A stretch of DNA of 22,534 bases from an uncultured Rubrobacteraceae bacterium (GTDB lineage Bacteria > Actinomycetota > Rubrobacteria > Rubrobacterales > Rubrobacteraceae), in the NCBI GenBank assembly GCA_902806105.1, contig CADCVI010000208.1, positions 1 to 22,534 of the forward strand, in the 5' to 3' direction. The position numbers were made by a program, and so were the translations under genes. Position 1 is the stretch's first letter. Every line of letters begins with the position of its first letter. The notes below the pieces were generated by a model, which searched no databases, was not told the DNA's origin, and worked only from the letters and a program-made list of their open reading frames with translations. Shown piece after piece: positions 1,601 through 18,628 of this stretch.

Positions 1601-3157
1601 CTAGCGCGCCCGAGTCCCGCCCTTCGGGCTCCCGTACCCGCCGCCGCCCGGCGTCTTGATGGTGACGACGTCGCCCCCCTCCAGTTCCCGGCTAGTCTTG
1701 GCCGGGAGCCCTTCGCCGTTCAGGAGGTTCTCGCCGACCTTGCCGGAACCCCCGCCCTTCGTGCCGCTCGGGCCGTGGCGGCGACGGTCGGTGAGGAGGG
1801 AGAGGCTGGCCCCCCCTTCGAGAATCTCGATAGAGCGGACGATACCGTCGCCGCCAACATGTTCCCCCTCGCCGCCCGAGCCCTGGACGAGCTCGTAGCG
1901 CGTCACGCGCATCGGGTACTCCATCTCGAACGCCTCGACGGGGGTGTTCAGGGTGTTGCTCATGCCGACGTGGACGCCGGAGGGGCCGGGGCCTCTCCGG
2001 CTCGCCCCCTGGCCGCCGCCGATCGTCTCGTAGTACGTCCAGCCGCCACCCCCCGAGCCGCCGATGATGACGTTGTTCATAGTCCCCTGGCCCTGGGCGG
2101 GGAGCTCGTCCGGGGCGAAATGCGAGAGGGCGGCGAGGACCGTGTCGGCGATCCGGTTGCTCGTCTCGACGTTTCCGGCCACGACCGCGGACGGTCTTCT
2201 CGCGTTCACGAGGCTGCCCTCGGGTGCCTGAATGTCGAGCGGAGCGTACGTGCCGGCGTTGGCGGGGACGTCTTTGGGGAGGAGGACGCGCAGGGCGAAG
2301 TAGCACGCCGAGCGGGTCACCGGCAGGGGGCAGTTTACGTTGCCCCGCACGGCGCCCGAGGTGCCGGAGAAGTCTATTGTGATCTCGTCGCCATCCACCC
2401 TTACCGTCGCCCTCACGGGGATATCTTCGTCGGTGGTGCCGTCCCCTTCGAGGAAGTCCTCGGCGGAGCTTTCGCCGTCGGGTAGTGCCCTAATAGCTTC
2501 GCGGGTTCGCCTCTCGGTGTAGGAGATCACCTCGTCGAACGCCTCCAGGACGAGGTCCTCCCCGCGCCGCCGTATAAGCTCGCCGACGCGCTCCTCGGCG
2601 ATGTTGTTCGCGGCGATCTGGGCGCGGAGGTCGCCGCGCCTGAGGGCCGGGGTGCGCACGTTCGCCAGGAGGAGGTCCAGGACGTCCCCGACGTACTCCC
2701 CCCGGCGCACGAGCCGGACCGGGGGGATGATGATGCCCTCCTGGTAGATCTCGCGGGAGTCGCTCGGCATGCTCCCGGGCCGCATCCCGCCGACGTCCGA
2801 GTGGTGCGCCCGCGTGACGGCGTACCCGACGATCCCGCCCTCGTGCGCCACCGGCGAAACTAGCGTGATGTCCGGCAGGTGCGTGCCGCCGGAGTACGGG
2901 TCGTTGATGGCGAAGACGTCGCCGGGCTCGGGGTTCCTCCTCATCACCGCCCGGACCGCCTCGGGCATCGCGCCGAGGTGGACCGGGATGTGTTCGGCCT
3001 GGGCGACCATGCGTCCCCTGGCGTCGAAGAGGGCCGTCGAGCAGTCGCGCCGCTCCTTTATGTTCGAGGAGTACGCGCCACGGATGAGGACCGCCCCCAT
3101 CTCCTCGGAGATTCCGCCGAGCGCGCTCGCGAGCACGGAGAGCGTCACCGGGTCCAC
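1601..3157 (-). CDS. hyuB: Hydantoinase B / oxoprolinase family subunit
   Basis: A 518-residue protein of the hydantoinase B/oxoprolinase family, the partner of HyuA in ATP-dependent opening of cyclic amides (N-methylhydantoin, 5-oxoproline) or in carboxylation of ketones by related complexes. Family hallmarks are the N-terminal DPVTLSVLASALGGISEEMG, the NDPYSGGTHLPD segment near residue 85, and the glycine-rich GGSGGGGWTYYETIGGGQG region around 367-385. The start is GTG at 3157, one nucleotide after the TAG of hyuA, with a purine-rich site (GAGAGGGGG) inside the end of hyuA; the pair is surely co-translated. A 12-nt palindrome (CGCGCTAGCGCG, 1597-1608) spans its stop codon. The substrate of this pair is unknown. 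Confidence 0.93.
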   Translation of the reverse strand: MDPVTLSVLASALGGISEEMGAVLIRGAYSSNIKERRDCSTALFDARGRMVAQAEHIPVHLGAMPEAVRAVMRRNPEPGDVFAINDPYSGGTHLPDITLVSPVAHEGGIVGYAVTRAHHSDVGGMRPGSMPSDSREIYQEGIIIPPVRLVRRGEYVGDVLDLLLANVRTPALRRGDLRAQIAANNIAEERVGELIRRRGEDLVLEAFDEVISYTERRTREAIRALPDGESSAEDFLEGDGTTDEDIPVRATVRVDGDEITIDFSGTSGAVRGNVNCPLPVTRSACYFALRVLLPKDVPANAGTYAPLDIQAPEGSLVNARRPSAVVAGNVETSNRIADTVLAALSHFAPDELPAQGQGTMNNVIIGGSGGGGWTYYETIGGGQGASRRGPGPSGVHVGMSNTLNTPVEAFEMEYPMRVTRYELVQGSGGEGEHVGGDGIVRSIEILEGGASLSLLTDRRRHGPSGTKGGGSGKVGENLLNGEGLPAKTSRELEGGDVVTIKTPGGGGYGSPKGGTRAR

Positions 3158-3158
3158 G

Positions 3159-5144
3159 CTAACGCCCCCTCTCGAGCACGAGCGTCCCGACCCCGTCCAC
3201 CCGCCCGTGCCACCCCGGCCTCACCACGCAGGTCGCCTCCCCGAACTCCACGATCGTGGGCCCCGAAACCTCAGAGCCCCTGCCCATACGTTCCCGGTCG
3301 AGGACCGGTACCTCCATCCAGGAGCTCCCCTCGCCGTCGAAGCTCGCCCCCCGCCGGCCGCGTTCCGCCTCGCCGCTCGTCGGTCCTTCCTCGAGCGTCG
3401 GCTTCTCGACCGGCACGGTCGCGACGAGCCTCAGGTTCACGAGCTCCACCCCCTCGCCCTCCATCCGGTAGCCGTAGCGCTTCTCGTGGGCCTCGTGGAA
3501 CCGTCCCTCCAGCCCGTCGAAATCGTCGGCCTCGACCGTCAGCTCGAAGGATTGCCCGCGGTAGCGCAGGTCCGCCCGGCGCACGAACTCCGGCCCGTCG
3601 AGGTCCCCTGCGGCGGCCTCCTCCATCTCCACGAACCGGCTCTCTACCTCCCCGGCCTCCGCCTGTGCGAGGTCCGCGAGGTAGGGGCGCACGTAGTCGC
3701 GGCGCAGATCGGAGATGGCGAGGCCCAGGGCGCTCAGGACGCCGCCCGCGCGGGGGATGAGGACCGTCCCCATGCCGAGTTCCTCGGCCAGGGAGCAGGC
3801 GTGCATACCGCCCGCGCCGCCGAAGGCCAGGAGGGCGAACTCGCGCGGGTCGAGGCCGCGCTCGACGCTTATGACGCGGAGCGCCCGGACCATCTCCGCG
3901 TTCGCGACCCGCACGATGCCGAGGGCGACCTCGCGGGCGTCGAGCCCCGTCTCCCTTCCCAGCCCCGCGAGGGCCTCCTCCGAGAGCTCGCGGCGTAAGG
4001 TCACCTCGCCGCCGAGCTTCGCGCCGTCCTCCAGGTAGCCGAGGTAGAGGTTCGCGTCGGTGACGGTCGGCTCCCCGCCACCCTTGCCGTAGGCAACCGG
4101 CCCCGGCTCGGCCCCCGCGGAACGGGGGCCTACGCGCAGGGCCCCGCCGGCGTCCGCCCAGGCCACGGAGCCGCCCCCCGCGCTCACCGTGTGGACGTCG
4201 ACCATCGGGAGCTTTATGGGGACGCCCGCGACCACGGTCTCCGTCGTCGTCTGGGCCTCGCCGTCCATGATCGCCGCGACGTCCGTGCTCGTCCCGCCCA
4301 TGTCGAAGCTCAAGAGGTCTCGGTATCCGCCGAGGCCCCCGACGTACGCGGCGCCCACTACCCCGCCCGCCGGTCCCGAGAGGACGCATCCTGCGGCGTC
4401 GGAGATCGCATCCTGTACGGGGACCACGCCGCCGGAGGACTGCATGATGAGCGGCTGGGGCACCCCCGCTTTTTTCGCCTTCCCCGCGAGGCTCCCCAGA
4501 TATGTCGCGAGCCTCGGGGCCAGGTACGCGTCGGCGGCGGTCGTGGAGAACCTCTCGTACTCCCGAAACTCCGGCAGCACCCCGCTGCTCAGGGAGACGT
4601 GGACGTCCGGAAGCGCCTCCCCGAGCGCCTCCCCGACGCGTCTCTCGTGCGCCGGGTGCGCGAAAGCGAACAGCAGGCAGACCGCCACCGCCTCTACCCC
4701 GGCTTCGCGGACGGCGGCGACGGCCTTCCGCAAGCTCCCCTCGTCGAGCGGCTCGACCTCGCCCTCCGGCCCCATCCTCTCCTTCACGACGAAGCGGAGC
4801 TCGCGCGGGACGAGGGCGGGGGGACGGTCCTGCGTCAGGTCGTAGAGGGAGGGCCGGTTCTGGCGCGCGATCTCCAGGACGTCCCTGAAACCCTCGGTGG
4901 TCACCAGCGCGATCCTGGCCCCGCGCCGCTCCAGCAGGGCGTTCGTCGCTACCGTCATCCCGTGGGCGAGGGCGACGACCGAGGAGGGCTCCACCCCGGA
5001 GGCGGCCAGGGCGTCCATCACGCCCCGGGACTGGTCCTGTGGCGTCGAGGGCACCTTGGCGGTGACGAGGCGGCCCTCCGAGAGGGCGACGAGGTCCGTG
5101 AAGGTGCCGCCCACGTCAACCCCGAGCCGCGCCCGGGCCTTCAA
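3159..5144 (-). CDS. hyuA: Hydantoinase A / oxoprolinase family subunit
   Basis: A 661-residue ATP-binding subunit of the hydantoinase/oxoprolinase family. The actin-like ATPase signatures are visible: GVDVGGTFTD (8-17), HGMTVATNAL (61-70), SFDMGGTSTD (279-288), and GGAGGMHACSLAEELGM in the second half. The order is N-terminal hydantoinase A domain, core ATPase domain, then a C-terminal region from about residue 505. The protein starts at TTG (5144); this TTG overlaps the TGA of the upstream transporter remnant (TTGA), so translation is probably coupled. No in-frame ATG exists before the first ATPase motif. HyuA and HyuB usually act as a hetero-oligomer in the cytosol. Whether it acts on hydantoins, oxoproline or another cyclic amide is not readable. 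Confidence 0.93.
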   Translation of the reverse strand: MKARARLGVDVGGTFTDLVALSEGRLVTAKVPSTPQDQSRGVMDALAASGVEPSSVVALAHGMTVATNALLERRGARIALVTTEGFRDVLEIARQNRPSLYDLTQDRPPALVPRELRFVVKERMGPEGEVEPLDEGSLRKAVAAVREAGVEAVAVCLLFAFAHPAHERRVGEALGEALPDVHVSLSSGVLPEFREYERFSTTAADAYLAPRLATYLGSLAGKAKKAGVPQPLIMQSSGGVVPVQDAISDAAGCVLSGPAGGVVGAAYVGGLGGYRDLLSFDMGGTSTDVAAIMDGEAQTTTETVVAGVPIKLPMVDVHTVSAGGGSVAWADAGGALRVGPRSAGAEPGPVAYGKGGGEPTVTDANLYLGYLEDGAKLGGEVTLRRELSEEALAGLGRETGLDAREVALGIVRVANAEMVRALRVISVERGLDPREFALLAFGGAGGMHACSLAEELGMGTVLIPRAGGVLSALGLAISDLRRDYVRPYLADLAQAEAGEVESRFVEMEEAAAGDLDGPEFVRRADLRYRGQSFELTVEADDFDGLEGRFHEAHEKRYGYRMEGEGVELVNLRLVATVPVEKPTLEEGPTSGEAERGRRGASFDGEGSSWMEVPVLDRERMGRGSEVSGPTIVEFGEATCVVRPGWHGRVDGVGTLVLERGR

Positions 5145-5455
5145 GCCCGGCCCCGCTGTTCGGCGACGAGCCTAAGTTCCTCGTTCTCGCCGGCGTCGAT
5201 GTCCTTGCGGAACGTCTCCTCGGCGAGGGCGTAGCAGACGATGCGCAAGAGGCAGAGGGCCGCGAACGCCGTGTACGAGAGCCTGGTCCCCGTGGCCTCG
5301 CCGAAGCCTTGGAAGAAAAGGGCAGGGAAGACGAGCACGGCTGTGGTCCCGTAGATGAAGTAGTCGTACCATCCTACCGTGGTCCCGACGAAGCTCGCGA
5401 CCACGACCTTTCGTATGGAGTTCGGCATATTCCCGGCCCCGTCCGTCCCCTCCAA
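5141..5455 (-). pseudogene. Internally deleted MHS-family (MFS) transporter remnant
   Basis: A 104-codon open frame (TTG at 5455; ATG at 5428 gives 95 residues). Its first half is the N-terminus of a metabolite:H+ symporter of the major facilitator superfamily: SIRKVVVASFVGTTVGWYDY followed by FIYGTTAVLVFPALFF, the typical first helix and loop. Its second half (SYTAFAALCLLRIVCYALAEET, then FRKDID) resembles the last helix and C-terminal tail of the same family. About 300-350 residues normally in between are missing, yet the reading frame is kept. One or two hydrophobic segments cannot make a transporter. It precedes hyuA with a TTGA overlap, so its translation may still matter for hyuA expression. 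It is presumably the former uptake protein for the hyuAB substrate. Confidence 0.7.
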
Positions 5456-5637: not shown

Positions 5638-6723
5638 ATGCCGATAGTAAGGGTCGAGTGGCTGGCGGGGCGCAGCCTGGGTCAGAGGAGGACGCTGGTT
5701 CGAAGGATCACGGACGCCCTCCAGGAGGTCGCCGGTTCGCGGCGGGAGAGCATCAAGGTCATACTTCACGACGTCCCGCCCGAAAACTACGGCAGCGCCG
5801 GAGAGCTGCTCTCGGAGCGCGAGCCCGACGCGTCTGATGTATCCCAATCCCCGACAACGGAAGCGTCCCGGGGCGGGGGAGACCGTGTGGAGGCTTCTCC
5901 GGCGAGGCGTCCCCCCGTACCGGAGCTCGGCGGCGTCGCGCGCGTCTTCGACCTGGAGCAGGCGCGCACGAGCGGGATGCCCATACACCCGGCCCACGCG
6001 CAGGCCGGATACTCCTACCTCCTCCACCGCCACCACGAGGACGAGTACAGGCCCGACGAGGCCGGGCCACGCACGGGGGCGGCCGGCGTCATCATCTGCG
6101 GCGAGCACACGGGCACCCACATCGACGCCCTCTGTCATCAGGCCGACGACCTTTCCCTGTACGGCGGCGTGCCCGTCGGGGAGGTCCAGTCCTCGCGCGG
6201 CTTCTCGAAGCTCGCCGCCGAGGAGATACCGCCTATCCTCGCCCCCGGCATCCTTCTCGATGTCGCGGCGCTGGAAGGCGTCGATGCCCTTGAGCCGGGA
6301 AGCGTCGTGACGGAGCGGGATCTCCAGCGCTGCTGCGAGGGTCAGGGGGTGACGGTCGAGCCGGGGAGCGTGGCGCTAGTCCACACCGGCAACTCCCGCC
6401 ACTGGGGCGAGCCCGAGCGCTACCTCGCCGGGCCCGGGATGTCTGCGGGCGCGTCGCGCTGGCTCGCGGAGCAGGGCGTGATCGCCGTCGGCGCGGACAA
6501 CATGGCCTGGGACGTCCCCGGTCTCGTGGATCCGGACCTCGGATGCATGCTTCCGGGGCACCTGATCCTGCTGGCCCGCCGCGGCATCCATATAGTCGAG
6601 AACCTCAAGACGGACGAGCTCGCGGCTTCTGGGATACGCCGCTTCACCTTCGTTTGTACCCCCCTCAAACTCGTCGGAGCCACCGGCTCCCCGGTCAGGC
6701 CCCTGGCCGTCGTTCAGGGGTAG
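5638..6723 (+). CDS. 4-oxalocrotonate tautomerase-cyclase fusion protein
   Basis: A 361-residue two-domain protein. Residues 2-61 match the 4-oxalocrotonate tautomerase family: Pro2 becomes the catalytic Pro1 after Met removal, the GRS motif supplies the Arg11 equivalent, the Arg39 position is Lys (IKV) and the Phe50 position is Tyr (NYG). Residues 62-95 are a Ser/Gly/Pro-rich, probably flexible linker. Residues 96-355 match the cyclase / kynurenine formamidase / isatin hydrolase family, with the metal-binding HTGTHID...H signature (H157, H161, D163, H167). The ATG at 5638 has GGGGGAGAGG five nucleotides upstream. A tautomerase fused to a metal-dependent ring-opening hydrolase suggests two consecutive steps on one cyclic or enol-forming substrate. 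It is divergent from hyuAB-P450 and probably serves the same pathway (inference). Confidence 0.9.
   Translation: MPIVRVEWLAGRSLGQRRTLVRRITDALQEVAGSRRESIKVILHDVPPENYGSAGELLSEREPDASDVSQSPTTEASRGGGDRVEASPARRPPVPELGGVARVFDLEQARTSGMPIHPAHAQAGYSYLLHRHHEDEYRPDEAGPRTGAAGVIICGEHTGTHIDALCHQADDLSLYGGVPVGEVQSSRGFSKLAAEEIPPILAPGILLDVAALEGVDALEPGSVVTERDLQRCCEGQGVTVEPGSVALVHTGNSRHWGEPERYLAGPGMSAGASRWLAEQGVIAVGADNMAWDVPGLVDPDLGCMLPGHLILLARRGIHIVENLKTDELAASGIRRFTFVCTPLKLVGATGSPVRPLAVVQG
5875..5889 (+). promoter_or_regulatory. Internal ribosome site and GTG start for the cyclase domain
   Basis: Inside the linker, GGGGGAG (5875-5881) stands five nucleotides before an in-frame GTG (5887, codon 84). This is the right place to start a stand-alone cyclase of 278 residues. 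It may be a live second start or a relic of two formerly separate genes. G-rich runs are common in this genome, so chance is possible. Confidence 0.4.
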
Positions 6724-6785: not shown

Positions 6786-6980
6786 ATGGTGGAGATCCCG
6801 AAGGCCATGATCATCGAGAAGATCCGGAGCCGCGACGGGGCCGAGAAGGCCAGCGAAGCCGACAAGGAGCTCCCCGACAAGCTCGACTCCGACAGCGACG
6901 CCGGCCTGCTCCAGAAGTACGGCATAAGCCCCGAAGAGTTGGGCGGCCAGTTCGGTGGCGGGTCCCCGGCGGTAGGGTAG
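6786..6980 (+). CDS. Small charged hypothetical protein, 64 aa
   Basis: Not recognised. The 64-residue product is acidic and highly charged, with an amphipathic N-terminal half (MVEIPKAMIIEKIRSRDG), an Asp/Ser-rich middle (PDKLDSDSDAG) and a C-terminal LLQKYGISPEELGG segment followed by a Gly-rich tail. The ATG at 6786 follows AAGGGAGAAAGAGAC, a plausible ribosome site. It starts 62 nt after the fusion gene on the same strand. A TATTCT box (6744-6749) in that gap could give it its own promoter. No signal peptide or membrane segment. The strong hairpin at 7018-7060 ends the unit. The strong start signal and uniform codon use make it likely to be real. Confidence 0.65.
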   Translation: MVEIPKAMIIEKIRSRDGAEKASEADKELPDKLDSDSDAGLLQKYGISPEELGGQFGGGSPAVG

Positions 6981-7103: not shown

Positions 7104-7319
7104 GTGGTCGACGCATCGGAGAACGAGGAAGGCCGCTCGAGGCGGGAGCACAGGCAAGCCCTGATCGAACGCCTCAACGCCAACGACGATGGTCTTCGTA
7201 AGCTCGAAGGTCGCAGACGCGAGACTGCACAACTCTCCGAGGAGGAGCTTGCGCAAGAGATCGAACGAGAGCGCGAGCGCAACCTTTCCCGTCTGGGGTT
7301 CGGCCAAGCCGGAGGTTGA
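7104..7319 (+). CDS. Small charged coiled-coil hypothetical protein, 71 aa
   Basis: Not recognised. A 71-residue protein of mostly Glu, Arg and Leu, with a likely helical, coiled-coil-prone stretch from about residue 11 to 63 (ALIERLNANDDGLRKLEGRR and EELAQEIERERERNLSRLG). The GTG start at 7104 follows AAGGGGGTGAGGA, a strong ribosome site. No transmembrane segment or signal peptide. It stands alone between the hairpin and a non-coding stretch. The strong start site and biased composition argue for a real small gene, though a spurious frame in GC-rich DNA cannot be excluded. Confidence 0.55.
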   Translation: MVDASENEEGRSRREHRQALIERLNANDDGLRKLEGRRRETAQLSEEELAQEIERERERNLSRLGFGQAGG

Positions 7320-10455: not shown

Positions 10456-11499
10456 CTACCGCAGGGCGCCGTTCAGGAGGCCGCGCCGGGCGGCCTGGCG
10501 CATAGCCTCGCCGACGTCGATCGTCAGCGGGCCTTCGGGATCCAGGCAGACCCCCACCTCGTCGGAGGGCCCGACCTCTATCTCTCGTTCCCCGTCCAGC
10601 GCGATGCTCCCGGCGCCGGAGGCGAGCGCGACGGTCTCGCCGGGCTCGATCCGGTTGACCTCCTTCACCCCGACCGGCACGACGAGGCCGGGGGCGAGGG
10701 GGACGGTCAGGACGGTCTCGGCCTCGTCCGGCGGGACGAGAAGGACGTGCAGGCCGTGCGGGGCGTCGCGGCCGGTGGGCTCCAGGAGCCCGGCGATGGA
10801 GGAGAGGCCCACGGCGTCCGGGCGGGCCGAAGAAACCACGATCTCCGAGATGTTGCGCGGGCGCCACAGGGCGCGGGCCCCGACGAAGCGCTCAGAGTTG
10901 ACCGCCACGTCCACGAGGGCGCAGTCGTACCTCTCCTCCCCGTTCAGGCCGACCCGCAGGATCTTCTCGCGCCTCAAGGCCTCGTCCCCGATCCGGCCCA
11001 TCGCTACGAGGCCCGTCGCTATGCCCGCCACGGTCGCCTCGCGCATCTCCGGGAACGCGTTGTTCGTCCCGGTGGACATGGTGCAGAGCGGCGTGTCGGG
11101 GTCGCAGTGGCGGGCGACTATGCGGCTCGTGCCGTCGCCGCCGAGGACGACGACCGCGGCGACGCTCCTGCGGCCCATCTCCGCGAGGGCATCGATCGTG
11201 TCGCGGGCGGTGTGCCGGACCGTCATCTCCACGAGCTCCAGCTCCGGTATCGGGCGCTTCTCCTCGACGGAGCTTCGGTGGGCCGCGCGTAAGGTCCGCT
11301 CCAGGCTGTCGTAGAGGCCGGAGGCTGCGGGCATCATCAGGACGCGGCGGACGCCCACGGCCGCGAGACCTACCATGAAACGGTAGATCATGTTGCCCTT
11401 CTCGCCGTTGTCGAAGACGGAGGCCCCCGAGACGAGCCTCCGTATGTCCCGGCCAGAGGCGGGGTTGGCGATAACGCCGACCGTCACGGCCTCCGGCAT
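10456..11499 (-). CDS. acoX: AcoX-like ATP-NAD kinase-fold protein of acetoin operons
   Basis: A 347-residue protein with the diacylglycerol/NAD-kinase type nucleotide fold: VGVIANPASGRDIRRLVS (7-24), the GGDGTSR loop (120-126) and STGTNNAFP (142-150). Its length and motifs match AcoX, which accompanies acetoin dehydrogenase genes in several bacteria; its biochemical role is not established to my knowledge. The ATG at 11499 is 4 nt after the acoC stop, so it is the last gene of the aco operon. The C-terminal half is rich in beta-strand-like repeats, as in NAD kinases. Confidence 0.85.
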   Translation of the reverse strand: MPEAVTVGVIANPASGRDIRRLVSGASVFDNGEKGNMIYRFMVGLAAVGVRRVLMMPAASGLYDSLERTLRAAHRSSVEEKRPIPELELVEMTVRHTARDTIDALAEMGRRSVAAVVVLGGDGTSRIVARHCDPDTPLCTMSTGTNNAFPEMREATVAGIATGLVAMGRIGDEALRREKILRVGLNGEERYDCALVDVAVNSERFVGARALWRPRNISEIVVSSARPDAVGLSSIAGLLEPTGRDAPHGLHVLLVPPDEAETVLTVPLAPGLVVPVGVKEVNRIEPGETVALASGAGSIALDGEREIEVGPSDEVGVCLDPEGPLTIDVGEAMRQAARRGLLNGALR

Positions 11500-11503
11500 C
11501 CCG

Positions 11504-12631
11504 CTACCCGTCCTGGCTGTCTAGAAACTCCCCGATCAACCGGTTCGTCTGGCCCGAGGCCTCCATCTGGGGCATATGGCCCGTGTCGTCGAGCACCTCG
11601 ACCCGGGCGTTGGCGGGGGCGTTCTCGGAGTGGGCGACCGGCACGATCTGATCATCGCGCCCCCAGATCACGAGCATCGGCACCTCGACCCCGGAGAGGT
11701 CCGGGACGTCGGCCTGCTTTCCGTTTGGAAATAGCTTGTCGGCGATCTTGCGGAGCGCCTCGTCCACCCCGTCGAGACGCTTGAACCGGATGACGTCGTT
11801 CACGAGCTGGCGGTTTACGAGGTCTGGGTTTGCGAAGAGGAGACCGAGCGTGTTCTTCATCTCCTTGCGCCGGTTCGCCGCGATAAAGCCCTCGATGTAC
11901 TCGCCGTTGATCTCCTCGCCGAGGCCCGCGCTCGCGATGAGCGAGAGCGACTGGACCTTCTCGGGGTGCTGTAGCGCGAACGAGGCCGCCACCGCGCCGC
12001 CCATCGAGTGCCCGAAGAGGTGCGCCTTCTCCACCCCCATCTCGTTCATGAAGCCCTCGACGACACGGACCAGCGAGGCGAGGTCGCCCTCGCCGACGTC
12101 TTTGGTGGAGCCGCCGTGGCCGGGCAGGTCGACCGCATAGACCGTGCGTCCGCCCCCGGCGAGCGCCTCCTGGTTGAAGACCCAGATGTTGATGTCGCCG
12201 CCGAAGCCGTGCAGGAGGACGAGTGGGGTACCCTCGCCCTCGCCGATCTTGAGGTACTGGATGTTCTTGCCGTCGATGCTTACGGTTTCGGGCTCGGGGC
12301 CGCCGGCCTCCTCCTCCGAGGGGACGAAGTTCGCCTGGAACTCTTCTACATACGCGTCGATCTCCTCGTCGGAGACGGAGGCGTCGGCGATTACGCCGAG
12401 CATCGCGCCGACCGGGAGGACGTCGCCCTCATTGGCGACGCGGCGCCGCAAGACGCCCTCACCGGGCGTCTCGACGGCGTTGTTGATCTTCTCGCTCTCG
12501 ACCTCGACTACCTCGTCGCCCTTCTTGAGCTCGGCCCCCTCCTCGACGAGCCACTGGACGACGGTCCCCTCCGTCATCGAGAGGCCCCACTTGGGCATGC
12601 CGAGCTTGGTCAGCCCCGTACCCTCGCTCAA
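11504..12631 (-). CDS. acoC: Acetoin dehydrogenase E2: dihydrolipoamide acetyltransferase
   Basis: A 375-residue subunit that takes the acetyl group from the E1 step to CoA. Residues 5-82 are a lipoyl domain with the lipoylated lysine K48 in EVESEKINNAVE. Residues 83-115 are an acidic linker. Residues 116-372 are an alpha/beta-hydrolase-type domain: GHSMGG with S209, WGRDDQ (D326/D327) and DTGH with H352. This architecture is typical of AcoC and differs from pyruvate dehydrogenase E2. The start is TTG (12631), overlapping the TGA of acoB as TTGA, with GGGAG seven nucleotides upstream. The first in-frame ATG (MPKWG) would cut into the lipoyl domain, so TTG is preferred. Confidence 0.93.
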   Translation of the reverse strand: MSEGTGLTKLGMPKWGLSMTEGTVVQWLVEEGAELKKGDEVVEVESEKINNAVETPGEGVLRRRVANEGDVLPVGAMLGVIADASVSDEEIDAYVEEFQANFVPSEEEAGGPEPETVSIDGKNIQYLKIGEGEGTPLVLLHGFGGDINIWVFNQEALAGGGRTVYAVDLPGHGGSTKDVGEGDLASLVRVVEGFMNEMGVEKAHLFGHSMGGAVAASFALQHPEKVQSLSLIASAGLGEEINGEYIEGFIAANRRKEMKNTLGLLFANPDLVNRQLVNDVIRFKRLDGVDEALRKIADKLFPNGKQADVPDLSGVEVPMLVIWGRDDQIVPVAHSENAPANARVEVLDDTGHMPQMEASGQTNRLIGEFLDSQDG

Positions 12632-13647
12632 GAAGCCACTCCCTGCCCGACGGTCTGCCTGACGGCGTTGGCGACCTTCTCGGGATCCGGGACGTAGAGG
12701 TCCTCCAGGGCGCCCGAGAACGGCGGCGGCGTGTGCGGGGCCGTCACCATCTGCGGGGCGGACTTCAGGTGCTCGAAGCAGTTCTGGGTCACGAGCGACA
12801 CTATGTCCGACGCCATGCTGCACCTGGGGTTCGACTCGTCCACGACGACGAGCCGGCCGGTGTTCTCGACGCTCTCGTAGATCGTGTCCGTGTCCAGCGG
12901 GGAGGTCGTCCGCGGGTCCACGATCTCGACCTCTATCCCTTCGTCGGCGAGGGCCACCGCCGCCTGCTCGGCCATCGAGACCATCCGGCCTATGGCCACG
13001 ATGGTGACGTCCTCGCCCTCGCGCACGATCTCGGCCTCACCCAGGGGTATCGTGTACGGCTCCTCCGGGACGTCCCCCTCGACCGCGTAGAGGACCTTGT
13101 TCTCGAAAAAGATCACCGGGTCGTCGTCGCGGATCGCGGCGATCATCAGCCCCTTGGCGTCGTACGGGTTGGACGGGATGACTACCTTGAGGCCCGGAAT
13201 GTGCGTGAAGATCGGGTACAGGGCCTGCGAGTGCTGGGCCGCGGCCCGGATGCCCGCACCGTACATGGTCCTGATGACCATGGGCGTCACGGCCTTGCCA
13301 CCGAACATGTAGCGGAACTTCGCGGCCTGGTTGTAGATCTGGTCGAAGCAGACCCCCATGAAGTCCACGAACATAAGCTCCGCGATCGGCCTGAGGCCCG
13401 AGGCCGCCGCACCTGCAGCCGCCCCGATAAACGCAGACTCGCTGATCGGGGTGTCGAGGATCTGGTTCGGGAACTTCCCGTAGAGGCCCTTGGTGACGCC
13501 CATGACGCCGCCCCACGCGTCTATCTCGCCCGGGCTCCCCGTTCCGCCGATGTTGTCCTCGCCGAAGACGACCACGGTCTTGTCCCGCTCCATCTCCTGC
13601 GCCATAGCCTCGTTTATAGCGTTCATGTACGTCGTCCTGCGCGCCAA
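12628..13647 (-). CDS. acoB: Acetoin dehydrogenase E1 beta subunit
   Basis: A 339-residue beta subunit of the thiamine-diphosphate E1 component that cleaves acetoin. It has the E1-beta fold signatures: INEAMAQEMERDKTVVVFGED at the start, DTPISESAFIGAAAGAA, RPIAELMFVDFMG, and the C-terminal transketolase domain with VDPRTTSPLDTDTI. The start is placed at TTG 13647 because AGGGAGG stands six nucleotides upstream and gives MARRTTYMNAINEA, the usual N-terminus; ATG 13626 has no ribosome site. It follows acoA after a 101-nt structured gap and overlaps acoC. Confidence 0.93.
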   Translation of the reverse strand: MARRTTYMNAINEAMAQEMERDKTVVVFGEDNIGGTGSPGEIDAWGGVMGVTKGLYGKFPNQILDTPISESAFIGAAAGAAASGLRPIAELMFVDFMGVCFDQIYNQAAKFRYMFGGKAVTPMVIRTMYGAGIRAAAQHSQALYPIFTHIPGLKVVIPSNPYDAKGLMIAAIRDDDPVIFFENKVLYAVEGDVPEEPYTIPLGEAEIVREGEDVTIVAIGRMVSMAEQAAVALADEGIEVEIVDPRTTSPLDTDTIYESVENTGRLVVVDESNPRCSMASDIVSLVTQNCFEHLKSAPQMVTAPHTPPPFSGALEDLYVPDPEKVANAVRQTVGQGVAS

Positions 13648-13671
13648 AATGTTCCTCCCTGTGGTCGGAGA

Positions 13672-13739
13672 GCCCGTCGGCACCTCGACTTGCCGGCCTC
13701 TCCTGGACGAGAGCCGCCGGAGGCGGCGTGCCGACGGGC
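13672..13739 (-). other. Structured RNA element between acoA and acoB
   Basis: A perfect 12-bp inverted repeat (GCCCGTCGGCAC at 13672-13683 with its complement at 13728-13739) encloses an inner 6-bp hairpin with a 3-nt loop (13713-13727) and a weaker TCTC/GAGA hairpin. In the acoAB transcript this would be a three-part fold between the acoA stop and the acoB ribosome site. The lack of a U-tract speaks against simple termination; processing, mRNA stabilisation or attenuation are possible. Confidence 0.55.
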
Positions 13740-13748
13740 CGAAGGGTT

Positions 13749-14750
13749 CTAGTAAGAGACGTAGACGTCGGTGAGCAGCTTGTCGGGGGTGGGGTCGGGG
13801 GCCGCCTTGGCCTTCCTGACGGACTCGTCTATGAGGTTCTTGACCTCCTCGTCTATCTGATCGAGCTCCGACTCCTCGATGAGGCCCGCGCTCGTGACGC
13901 GCTGGCGGAAGAGCATCAGGCAGTCCTTCTCCTTGCGGACGTTCTCGACCTCGTTCTCGCCCCGGTAGGTCTGCGCGTCGCCCTCGAAGTGGCCGTAGTA
14001 GCGGTTGACCTTGCACTCTATGAGGGATGGCCCGCCGCCCTCGCGAGCGCGCCTGATGGCCTCGCCCGCGGCCTCATGCACGGCGAAGAAGTCGTGCCCG
14101 TCCACGACGACGCCGGGCATCGAGAAGCCGTCGGCCCTCTTGGCGATGTCTATGCCCTTGCTGGAGAACGCCTGGGCGGTCGCCTCGGCGTAGCCGTTGT
14201 TCTCGATGACGAAGATCACCGGCAGGTCCCAGGCGCTGGCGAGGTTCATGCTCTCGAAGACCGTGCCCTGGTTCGCGCCGCCGTCGCCGGTGAACGAGAT
14301 GGCCACCTGATCGGTGCCGCGTACTTTGGCCGAGAGACCGACGCCGCAGACCAGCGGCGGCCCGCCGCCGACGATGCCGTTCGCGCCGAGCATCCCCTTT
14401 TCGAGGTCGGCGATGTGCATGGAGCCGCCCTTGCCCCGGCAGATCCCCTCATCCTTGCCGTAGATCTCGAGCATCATCCCCGTGACGTCGCAGCCCTTGG
14501 CGATGGAGTGCCCGTGGCCGCGGTGCGTGGAGGCGACGTAGTCGTCGCCGTCGAGGTGCGCCATGAACCCGGCTGCGATTGCCTCCTCACCGGCGTAGAG
14601 GTGAACGAAGCCCGGGATCTCACCGGTCGCGAACTCCGTGTGCAGCCGTTCTTCGAAGTCTCGGATCGTTTTCATCGTCCGGTAGGCATCGAGCAGGGCC
14701 CCCTTGTCGAGATCCCCGTGGCGCTCCCTTGCGCCAGCAACTTCGGTCAT
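13749..14750 (-). CDS. acoA: Acetoin dehydrogenase E1 alpha subunit
   Basis: A 333-residue alpha subunit of the thiamine-diphosphate E1 component. The thiamine-diphosphate/Mg motif is complete: GDGGANQGTVFESMNLAS (155-172) and ENN (183-185). THRGHGH (75-81) and the GKGGSMH segment (107-112) are typical of the E1-alpha family. ATG 14750 with GGAAGGAG five nucleotides upstream is preferred over an in-frame TTG at 14771. With AcoB it would convert acetoin to acetaldehyde plus an acetyl group passed to AcoC. The 89-nt gap to the preceding SDR gene shows no terminator, so all five leftward genes may be one transcript. Confidence 0.94.
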   Translation of the reverse strand: MTEVAGARERHGDLDKGALLDAYRTMKTIRDFEERLHTEFATGEIPGFVHLYAGEEAIAAGFMAHLDGDDYVASTHRGHGHSIAKGCDVTGMMLEIYGKDEGICRGKGGSMHIADLEKGMLGANGIVGGGPPLVCGVGLSAKVRGTDQVAISFTGDGGANQGTVFESMNLASAWDLPVIFVIENNGYAEATAQAFSSKGIDIAKRADGFSMPGVVVDGHDFFAVHEAAGEAIRRAREGGGPSLIECKVNRYYGHFEGDAQTYRGENEVENVRKEKDCLMLFRQRVTSAGLIEESELDQIDEEVKNLIDESVRKAKAAPDPTPDKLLTDVYVSY

Positions 14751-14839
14751 AGAGTCTCCTTCCTTTCCCAAGGAACAGATGTAGCGGAACGATAAGTCCT
14801 GACACCATCAGCGTCAAGATCGTCAGAGCTCCGGGATAC

Positions 14840-16348: not shown

Positions 16349-16374
16349 CCCGCGACTCAAGAAGGGAGCGAAGC

Positions 16375-17442
16375 ATGAAAGCAGCGGTATTCTACGGACC
16401 ACGCGACATCAGGCTAGAGGATGTTCAGGAGCCAGAGATCCGTCCCGGAAACGTCAAGGTGAAGGTTGACTGGTGCGGCATCTGCGGCACCGACCTGCAC
16501 GAGTACCTGGCCGGTCCGATCTTTATCCCGCCGGTCGGGAGCCCCCACCCCATCACCGGCGAGACGCTGCCCCTGACCCTGGGGCACGAGTTCGCCGGCG
16601 AGGTCGTCGAGGTGGGGGAGGACTCCGACGGGATCTCCACCGGCGACAAGGTAGCCATCGAGCCGGTCTTCCGCTGCGGCGAGTGCGCGGCGTGCCAGCG
16701 CGGCGCCACCAACCTCTGCGAGAAGCTCGGGTTCTACGGCCTCATGGGCGGGGGCGGCGGGATGTCCGAGTACGCGGTCATACCCTCGTACATGATCCAC
16801 AAGCTCCCCGAGGGGCTCACGACCGAGCAGGGGGCGCTCGTCGAGCCCATCGCCGTCGGCCTGCGCGCCGTGCGCCGGGCCAGCTTCAAGGAGGGCCAGA
16901 GCGCGCTCGTCTTCGGGGCCGGGCCCATAGGGGCGGTCACCGTGCAGTGCCTCAAGGCGCTCGGCGCCGGCCAGATCATGGTCGCCGAGGTCTCCGAGGC
17001 CCGCAAGAAAAAGGCGATGGAGATAGGGGCCGACGCGGTCATAGACCCGACCGAGGAAGACGTCGTCGAGAAGGTCCGGGAGCTGACGGGCGGCGAGGGG
17101 ACGGAGCACTCGTTCGACTGCGCCGGCATTCAGCAGACGCTCCAGACCGCGCTCCATGCCACGCGCAAGGGCGGCCACGTCACCATCGTCTCCATCTGGG
17201 AGGGACCCGTACAGATCAACCCCAACGATATCGTGCTGGCCGAGCTCAACGTGGGCGGCATCATCTGCTACACGCCGCAGGACTTCGCCGACACCATCGA
17301 CATGCTCAAGGACGGCAGCATAAAGACCGAGGGGATCATCACCGAGCGCATCCCCCTCTCCGACATCGTCCAGGGCGGCTTCGAGGAGCTCGTGGACCAC
17401 AAGGACCGCCACGTGAAGATCCTGGTCAACTCCACCCAGTAG
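16375..17442 (+). CDS. Zinc-dependent (R,R)-2,3-butanediol dehydrogenase-like
   Basis: A 355-residue medium-chain alcohol dehydrogenase. Catalytic zinc residues are C37 (CGICGTD), H71-E72 (GHEFAGE) and E157 (VEP). The structural zinc site is C101, C104, C107 and C115. The NAD-binding loop is FGAGPIGAVTVQCLKALGA. The insert EYLAGPIFIPP...HPITGETLP before GHE is characteristic of (R,R)-butanediol dehydrogenases. ATG 16375 follows AAGGGAG at seven nucleotides. It would oxidise butanediol to acetoin for the divergent AcoABC complex, or reduce acetoin under other conditions. It ends at a strong hairpin. Confidence 0.93.
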   Translation: MKAAVFYGPRDIRLEDVQEPEIRPGNVKVKVDWCGICGTDLHEYLAGPIFIPPVGSPHPITGETLPLTLGHEFAGEVVEVGEDSDGISTGDKVAIEPVFRCGECAACQRGATNLCEKLGFYGLMGGGGGMSEYAVIPSYMIHKLPEGLTTEQGALVEPIAVGLRAVRRASFKEGQSALVFGAGPIGAVTVQCLKALGAGQIMVAEVSEARKKKAMEIGADAVIDPTEEDVVEKVRELTGGEGTEHSFDCAGIQQTLQTALHATRKGGHVTIVSIWEGPVQINPNDIVLAELNVGGIICYTPQDFADTIDMLKDGSIKTEGIITERIPLSDIVQGGFEELVDHKDRHVKILVNSTQ

Positions 17443-17458
17443 AAACGCTCCATGCTCG

Positions 17459-17490
17459 GGACGCCCGGAACTGCTACCTTCCGGGCGTCC
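17459..17490. terminator. Bidirectional terminator hairpin
   Basis: A perfect 12-bp stem (GGACGCCCGGAA / TTCCGGGCGTCC) with an 8-nt loop between the convergent butanediol dehydrogenase and CoA-transferase genes. The loop and right arm lie within the last codons of the CoA-transferase. No T-tract, but the convergent placement makes termination on both strands likely. Confidence 0.65.
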
Positions 17491-18628
17491 ATCCTGCGTC
17501 CTCGCCGGTGTGCTGGCCGAGCGTCGGGGGCGGGCGGCGGATCGGCAGCCGCTCCCCGTCCACGAGGATGGGCGAGGCTAGCATCTTCAAAGCCCCGGCC
17601 GTCGGGTGCTCGACGTCCTGCAACATGCCGGAGGCCAGCACGTGCTCGTCGGAGAAGACGTCCGCGAGCGTATTGACCGGGCCGCAAGGGACGCCCGCCC
17701 CCCGTACCTTCTCGACCCACTCGTCGGCGGTCCCCTTCGAGAATTCTTCCTGCAACTGTGCCACCAGGCCCTCGCGGTTCGCGACGCGGTCCGGGTTCGT
17801 GGCGTAGCGTTCGTCGGTAGCAAGCTCTTCGCGCCCGAGGGCGCGGCAGAGGTTCGCGAACTGCGCGTCGTTGCCGACGGCGACGGCCACGGGTTTGTCC
17901 GATGCGTCGAAGGTCTGGTAGGGGACGATGGAGGGGTGGGCGTTGCCCATGCGGCCCCTGTCCTCGCCGGAGACCAGAAACTCCTGGGCGCGGTTGGCGA
18001 GCCAGCCGAGCTGCGTCTCGAAGAGCGGGACCTCGATGCGGGCGCCCTCGCCCGTCTCCGAACGCTTGTGGAGGGCGGCGAGGATGGCGGTGGAGGCGTG
18101 CAGGCCGCAGACCATGTCCGCTATCGCGACCCCGACCTTCACCGGGTCGCCGTCCGGGAAACCGGTGATGCCCATGATCCCGCCACGGGCCTGCACGAGA
18201 AAGTCGTAGCCTGGCCGGGTCTCGTCCGGCCCCGGTCCGAAGCCGGTTATGGAGCAGTACACGATACTCGGGTTGATCTCCTTGAGGACCTCGTAGCCGA
18301 GGCCGAGTTTCGCCAGGGCGCCCCTTCGCATGTTCTCTATGACGACGTCCGCCCCAGCCGCGAGCTCCTTTACCTTCTCCAGCCCCTCCGGCGTCTTGAG
18401 GTCGACGGCGACCGAGCGCTTGTTGCGGTTGATGGAGAGGAAGTAGGCCGATTCGCGGGCTTCGCCCTCTCCCGCGAAGGGCGGCCCCCAGTGGCGCGTG
18501 TCGTCGCCGCGGCCCGGGTGCTCGACCTTCAGGATATCTGCCCCGAGGTCCCCGAGGATCATCGTCGCGTAGGGACCGGCCAGGACCCGCGATAGGTCCA
18601 GCACCCGCACGCCCTCCAGCGGCAGCAT
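17474..18628 (-). CDS. Class III (CaiB/BaiF) CoA-transferase
   Basis: A 384-residue enzyme that moves CoA between carboxylic acids. It has the family start LEGVRVLDLSRVLAGPYATM, DLGADILKVEHPGRGD (27-42), NRNKRSVAVDLK (67-78) and the nucleophile Asp142 in PGYDFLVQARGG. ATG 18628 lies 4 nt after the stop of the cupin gene, so the two are co-transcribed. It is divergent, across the cupin gene, from an acyl-CoA ligase, suggesting two alternative ways to activate the same or related acids. The acid pair is unknown. Confidence 0.93.
   Translation of the reverse strand: MLPLEGVRVLDLSRVLAGPYATMILGDLGADILKVEHPGRGDDTRHWGPPFAGEGEARESAYFLSINRNKRSVAVDLKTPEGLEKVKELAAGADVVIENMRRGALAKLGLGYEVLKEINPSIVYCSITGFGPGPDETRPGYDFLVQARGGIMGITGFPDGDPVKVGVAIADMVCGLHASTAILAALHKRSETGEGARIEVPLFETQLGWLANRAQEFLVSGEDRGRMGNAHPSIVPYQTFDASDKPVAVAVGNDAQFANLCRALGREELATDERYATNPDRVANREGLVAQLQEEFSKGTADEWVEKVRGAGVPCGPVNTLADVFSDEHVLASGMLQDVEHPTAGALKMLASPILVDGERLPIRRPPPTLGQHTGEDAGWTPGR

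Follow-up and report, generated by a model that had tools for sequence, protein, structure and literature searches.

The window, by which we mean the whole 22,534-nucleotide stretch analysed here, carries at positions 5638–6723 of the forward strand a fused tautomerase–cyclase gene with an open frame of 361 amino acids, whose ATG is the first start following a stop and is immediately preceded on its 5' side by a GGGGGAGAGG stretch. The sequence-only reading had proposed that two enzyme families are joined in this one frame, and Pfam bears this out, with Tautomerase (PF01361) at residues 2–60 (E 3.6e-16, 59.3 bits versus a cut-off of 22) and Cyclase (PF04199) at residues 105–293 (E 1.8e-28, 99.9 bits versus a cut-off of 23.1). 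The tautomerase domain (residues 2–60; 5641–5817, +) opens with Pro2, which would be the mature Pro1 if Met is removed, and is followed by a variable linker at about residues 61–98 (5818–5931, +) and a cyclase/isatin-hydrolase-type domain at about residues 99–361 (5932–6720, +). The residues named in that reading are also as it gave them: Pro after Met, Arg12 (Arg11 of 4-oxalocrotonate tautomerase, 4-OT), Lys40 at the Arg39 position and Tyr51 at the Phe50 position, in a 4-OT numbering fitted to our alignments, and the metal-site motif HTGTHIDALCH (residues 157–167; 6106–6138, +), which reads H157-T-G-T-H161-I-D163...H167. These four metal-site residues are conserved in 72 of 73 rows each, the remaining row being a gap; H308 (73/73) and E321 (69/73) presumably belong to the metal site as well, by analogy with kynurenine formamidase.

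Structurally, a model predicted from 83 alignment rows (pLDDT 89.8; an earlier prediction from 33 close rows only was poor, at 59.5) has a 4-OT fold from residue 2 and a cyclase-family fold in its C-terminal part, both matching solved enzymes, with pLDDT <50 for linker residues 62–84. The 4-OT tautomerase pocket is formed by several subunits. Of the suggested check that Pro1 faces such a pocket, the fold is supported by the prediction, and the multi-subunit pocket itself lies beyond the reach of a monomer model. The N-terminal domain has the fold, the Pro after Met and the Arg11 position of the 4-OT family (PF01361; 1bjp, 4x1c, 2x4k), but differs in its Lys for Arg39, its Tyr for Phe50 and its extra catalytic partner, and scores below every NCBIfam curated cut-off, subfamily and equivalog (53.3 versus 56.9 bits for TIGR00013). 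The C-terminal domain has in common with isatin hydrolase and kynurenine formamidase (PF04199; 4j0n, 5nmp, 4co9, 5ibz) the fold and the HxGTHxD...H motif, at 18–28% identity over aligned residues; its likeness to isatin hydrolase, as judged from sequence and model, lies in the fold and 20–25% identity, and the listings of these four entries, unlike the window, report no N-terminal tautomerase. The window protein clearly misses the arylformamidase equivalog TIGR03035 (KynB; 34.1 bits versus a cut-off of 223.05) and so should not be named a kynurenine formamidase. Another N-terminal 4-OT part joined to a further domain is found, according to entry title and structure match, in the 4OT-SnoaL protein of P. 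atlanticus (9mua, 9mup), where the partner is SnoaL by title rather than a PF04199 hydrolase; 9mua hints that an N-terminal 4-OT domain can be fused to partners of other kinds.

The fusion is real and conserved. From 7996 proteins scored, 3686 passed and 120 were listed as matches, of which 33 combine the two domains in this order, the arrangement for which a search had been proposed, and 87 have the cyclase alone. The fused proteins among the matches listed comprise group A, made up of the window protein and 10 others (78–84% identity to it, coverage 99–100%, both domains in the same order), and group B, with 22 members at 57–64% identity to the window protein. At the genome level, the group A frame is open in L024, open to the contig end in L001 (residues 1–349), and broken in the Rubrobacter marinus copy (L002, 10001–11077) within a complete genome, through either error or decay. 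Of 39 Rubrobacteria genomes from the class around R. marinus, 23 match the cyclase at E 1e-50 or better and five carry fusions: three of group A (one with the broken frame, one cut by the contig) and two of group B, both of the latter also carrying an unfused A-type cyclase. A Thermomicrobiales MAG (L006) holds another fusion; in a search of its class for tautomerases beside cyclases, 35 of 158 genomes matched and, among the 30 loci listed, a cyclase stood within about 1.5 kb only at the fused L006. The broken R. marinus frame is the one observation that would suit a sequencing or assembly error having joined two genes, and this explanation can be dismissed as extremely improbable given independent copies, namely at least 33 proteins with the fusion, which also occurs in 5 of the 39 Rubrobacteria genomes. 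Nor is the cyclase merely preceded by an unconserved extension, the other case that would have told against the proposal, as the nearest unfused relatives simply do without the domain. An exact-word search with the window's tautomerase part returned group A alone (11 of 59 candidates), a limit that follows from the need for words to match exactly. In an open-access collection, with few subscription journals in it, no description of a tautomerase–PF04199 hydrolase fusion was found.

At the catalytic positions, groups A and B diverge. Group A has Pro after Met, Arg12, Lys40 and Tyr51 in 11/11 proteins each, and group B has Arg12, His40 and Trp51 in 22/22 each, with the residue after Met being Val in 13, Pro in 6 and Ala in 2, and the start missing in one. 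The Arg11 position is therefore kept in all 33 fused proteins, and at the Arg39 position A has Lys and B has His. In canonical 4-OT, Arg39 has a role, and it is not kept in every tautomerase. The Val forms of L003 and L019 are not start errors, since their DNA reads ATG GTT/GTC GTG GTG about ten bases 3' of a AAGGAGGAGG stretch. With Val or Ala at most Pro1 positions in B, a free Pro1 cannot be what preserves the domain there, and the earlier argument that the need for a free Pro1 dictates the domain order finds no support as a general reason (13 Val, 2 Ala, 6 Pro and 1 unread start, n = 22). Pro1 in 11/11 of A and 6/22 of B makes tautomerase catalysis likely for the window and not general; because its loss in most of B means that the domain can serve something else, we would put tautomerase catalysis in the window protein, as judged from these residues, at about one half. 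Among the nearest solo relatives, the standalone tautomerases P0212, P0218 and P0219 have Ala in place of Pro1.

These residues bear directly on a doubtful though serious alternative, that the tautomerase domain has a chiefly structural role, its trimer or hexamer fold arraying hydrolases or its Arg11 binding an anionic ligand, with chemistry secondary or lost. Such a role would accommodate the 15 of 22 group B proteins that have Val or Ala for Pro1 while Arg12 stays in 22/22, and unfused orthologues do occur; Arg12 is, however, general by eye among solo relatives too, so its retention is weak evidence for a structural role. Harder to square with it are the retention of Pro1 in 11/11 of group A, in L006 and in two loci where tautomerase and cyclase are separate genes (L060 and L077), and the very existence of such pairs, which are unlike a scaffold arrangement. 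One architecture with Pro kept in A and mostly replaced by Val in B amounts to a natural experiment on the need for Pro1 chemistry.

The gene pairs themselves were found at four actinobacterial loci with tautomerase and cyclase as separate neighbours (L060, L077, L207, L209). In L060 (Streptosporangiaceae MAG) and L077 (Nocardioides MAG), the end of the tautomerase gene overlaps the cyclase start by 1 and 8 nt, respectively. Across 341 genomes of the family around L077, the cyclase occurs at E 1e-60 in three genomes and four loci, with a tautomerase directly upstream in three of them (L206, which is L077 again, L207 and L209) and none upstream in L208; across 394 genomes of the class around L060, it occurs in four, with a tautomerase only at L060 itself. 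Tautomerase–cyclase gene pairs exist, then, but are not the rule, and in profile scans of the locus frames only the fused genes and the pairs gave a tautomerase next to a cyclase. Both domains could also be active on different substrates, the fusion only co-regulating one pathway with no intermediate handed over; the long and variable linker and the pairs, which function without a covalent link, would be compatible with this, but placing two unrelated steps in a single gene makes for a less specific reading, which we regard as rather improbable.

Beside the fused gene, the window encodes on the reverse strand a hyuA-type hydantoinase/oxoprolinase subunit (3159–5144, −; PF05378, PF01968), a hyuB-type subunit (1601–3157, −; PF02538) and a cytochrome P450 (185–1555, −; PF00067), with N-methylhydantoinase 7hk5 as the best match of both HyuA and HyuB among solved structures. 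The neighbourhood comparison that had been suggested for hyuAB and P450 genes comes out positive, hyuA and hyuB lying on the opposite strand with a P450 beyond in 4/4 group A loci (window, L001, L002, L024), though these four belong to one clade and so amount to a single association. Unfused Rubrobacter cyclases (L005, L007, L008, L017, L018) have hyuAB at 77–84% identity and a family III CoA-transferase gene, which adjoins the cyclase in relatives and lies 11 kb off in the window (17474–18628, −; PF02515). A P450 match at 1e-8 was absent from the unfused hyuAB loci with enough flank (L007, L008, L017); among loci with enough flank, a P450 joins hyuAB only in the fused-gene clade. The P450 may supply the substrate. 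An MFS transporter gene beside the cyclase is open over 456–479 aa in L007, L008 and L017 (for L007 with a Pfam check) and a fragment in the window (5141–5455, −), L001 and L002. Group B loci L003 and L019 are surrounded by SDR, HbpS-like, gluconate-2-dehydrogenase-subunit-3-like and GMC oxidoreductase genes, and L006 by gluconate-2-dehydrogenase-subunit-3-like, GMC oxidoreductase, IclR regulator and branched-chain-type transporter genes, with no SDR or HbpS match at that locus. HbpS-like and SDR genes are found at the pairs L060 and L077, joined by a more distant GMC gene in L060 and the branched-chain-type transporter in L077, and also at the unfused L075 and L079, which gave no tautomerase match.

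Evolutionarily, the two domains have different histories as judged by their trees. The cyclase tree held 69 of 100 rows (16 dropped as long, stop-holding or unsure, 15 thinned), with the fused rows A_P0004, A_P0010, B_P0013, B_P0027 and B_P0062 left out and L002 included in no tree. In it, group A together with the unfused P0012 (95/94) sits within a 40-row clade (100/97) of otherwise unfused Rubrobacter-type cyclases, and the unfused Rubrobacter cyclases grouping with A share its hyuAB locus. Thirteen of 17 group B rows form a separate clade (99/94), outside which fall P0029, P0077 with P0120, and L006, so that group B is not one cyclase clade. The AU test rejected a tree that holds A together with the 13 B rows, which were picked after the tree was seen (102 log-likelihood units worse, p 3e-53), and did not reject one in which group A by itself is a clade (p 0.42). 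The tautomerase trees unite A and B in a single clade, both against 24 solo and 2 pair rows (95/92) and against 106 solo and 2 pair rows (SH-aLRT 86, below star), in alignments whose 62 columns give little resolution; from the larger tree 13 of 119 proteins were excluded as fused-gene fragments or rows without an N-terminus, and five rows were badly trimmed. A linker-end motif V/L-P/S-E/D/K-L/F before the cyclase recurs in 11/11 A and 16/22 B proteins and in 0/86 unfused ones, a count made weak by most unfused proteins having only five to seven residues there.

The simplest reading of this discordance is that a tautomerase domain with its linker was grafted onto a resident hyuAB-linked cyclase. 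A tautomerase–cyclase gene pair would have been fused first in the group B lineage, and the module grafted later in the Rubrobacter marinus clade (A). The alternative, a single ancestral fusion from which the tautomerase domain was lost several times, would explain the single A and B tautomerase clade (95/92; 86), the similar linker end (11/11 A, 16/22 B) and the unfused P0012 within A; we consider it unlikely, in that several losses are needed to place A inside a 40-row otherwise unfused clade (100/97) and no tautomerase remnant was seen 5' of unfused cyclases; a single A and B cyclase clade, which the AU test rejects, is nothing that it requires. The search for remnants was made by eye in the upstream frames of 32 loci, for L028 and L026 in the frame before a match beginning further out and for L023 and L128 in only 61 bases; the contigs of L023 and its copy L128 begin there, which makes their 'unfused' label provisional. 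In L095 and L111 the upstream frame resembles, by eye, a transporter tail, and at a guess the extension of P0042 is of the same kind. Any PF01361 match occurs in only 17 of 39 Rubrobacteria genomes, so several genomes with an unfused cyclase are without a recognisable tautomerase. Under the graft reading, the discordant domain trees look as if a domain had been moved from one paralogous locus to another. Going further, and tentatively, we speculate that the module is transferable, having passed from an SDR/GMC-operon fusion to a hyuAB-linked cyclase, where it gave rise to a two-step enzyme, encoded next to a P450, that acts on a new ring substrate, while the donor's domain lost its catalytic proline and was put to another role (amine chemistry of an N-terminal Val or Ala, or a scaffold).

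In group A, both catalytic parts are under purifying selection and the linker is loose. Three group A gene pairs gave dN/dS values, rough ones given the high synonymous change, of 0.08, 0.15 and 0.19 for the tautomerase, 0.17, 0.19 and 0.18 for the cyclase, and 0.69, 0.72 and 0.61 for the linker. The loose linker holds for group A only, as the group B pair L003–L019 has 0.15 (tautomerase), 0.13 (cyclase) and 0.09 (linker) and the A-versus-B comparison of window and L003 has 0.34, 0.23 and 0.34.

Functionally, we posit, at a probability of about 50%, that the fused protein is a bifunctional catabolic enzyme in which a Pro1 keto-enol tautomerase and a metal-dependent ring-opening hydrolase are carried on a flexible linker. 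Removal of Met would free Pro1 of the N-terminal 4-OT-type domain, and Pro1 could then serve as the general base in converting between keto and enol (or dienol) forms; the flexible linker would tie this domain to a metal-dependent, probably Mn-dependent, cyclase-family hydrolase that opens a ring at a C–N bond (lactam, imide, hydantoin) or a C–C bond (cyclic 1,3-dicarbonyl). The tautomerase might either provide the cleavable tautomer for the hydrolase or ketonise the enol that the hydrolase releases. We infer the activity of both domains, the metal, the order of the steps and the kind of substrate, and with them the coupling of ring opening to keto-enol conversion; what we observe is the fusion itself, the predicted folds, the conserved residues, selection against change, tautomerase and cyclase as separate neighbours in other actinobacteria, and domain histories that differ. 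Isatin is opened at its C–N bond by cyclase-family hydrolysis. The cyclic 1,3-diketone dihydrophloroglucinol has its C–C bond opened, in a retro-Claisen reaction that works best with Mn, by a cyclase-family cyclohydrolase of Clostridium scatologenes, an enzyme likened here by description, encoded in another gene cluster and with no fused tautomerase in the passages describing it (PMC10470551). Because such substrates or products can be keto or enol, a tautomerase acting through Pro1 would be of use. The hyuAB genes next to group A suggest a ring of the lactam or hydantoin type, with which the wider context of hyuAB, CoA-transferase, transporter and P450 would also agree.

Against the two-step reading stand the loss of Pro1 in at least 15 of the 22 group B fusions, which retain the domain, the 87 proteins among the 120 matches listed that do without it, including cyclases at the same hyuAB locus, the many Rubrobacteria genomes in which such a cyclase occurs with no PF01361 match, the replacement of Arg39 by Lys or His, the scores below all NCBIfam curated cut-offs for the tautomerase domain, and an A-versus-B tautomerase dN/dS (0.34, window–L003) no lower than that of the linker. 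The fusion and its operon neighbours nevertheless connect a tautomerase and a metal hydrolase that are both orphans, and narrow the substrate search for the two.

Elsewhere in the window, two small frames lie 3' of the fused gene (6786–6980, + and 7104–7319, +) with counterparts in the same place in L002, and Pfam gave no match for the first. Farther along, at 10456–14771 (−), consecutive genes encode an E1 alpha, an E1 beta, a protein in which a lipoyl domain is fused with an alpha/beta hydrolase, and an ATP-NAD-kinase-like protein; the row resembles an acetoin dehydrogenase cluster, and a zinc alcohol dehydrogenase follows at 16369–17442.
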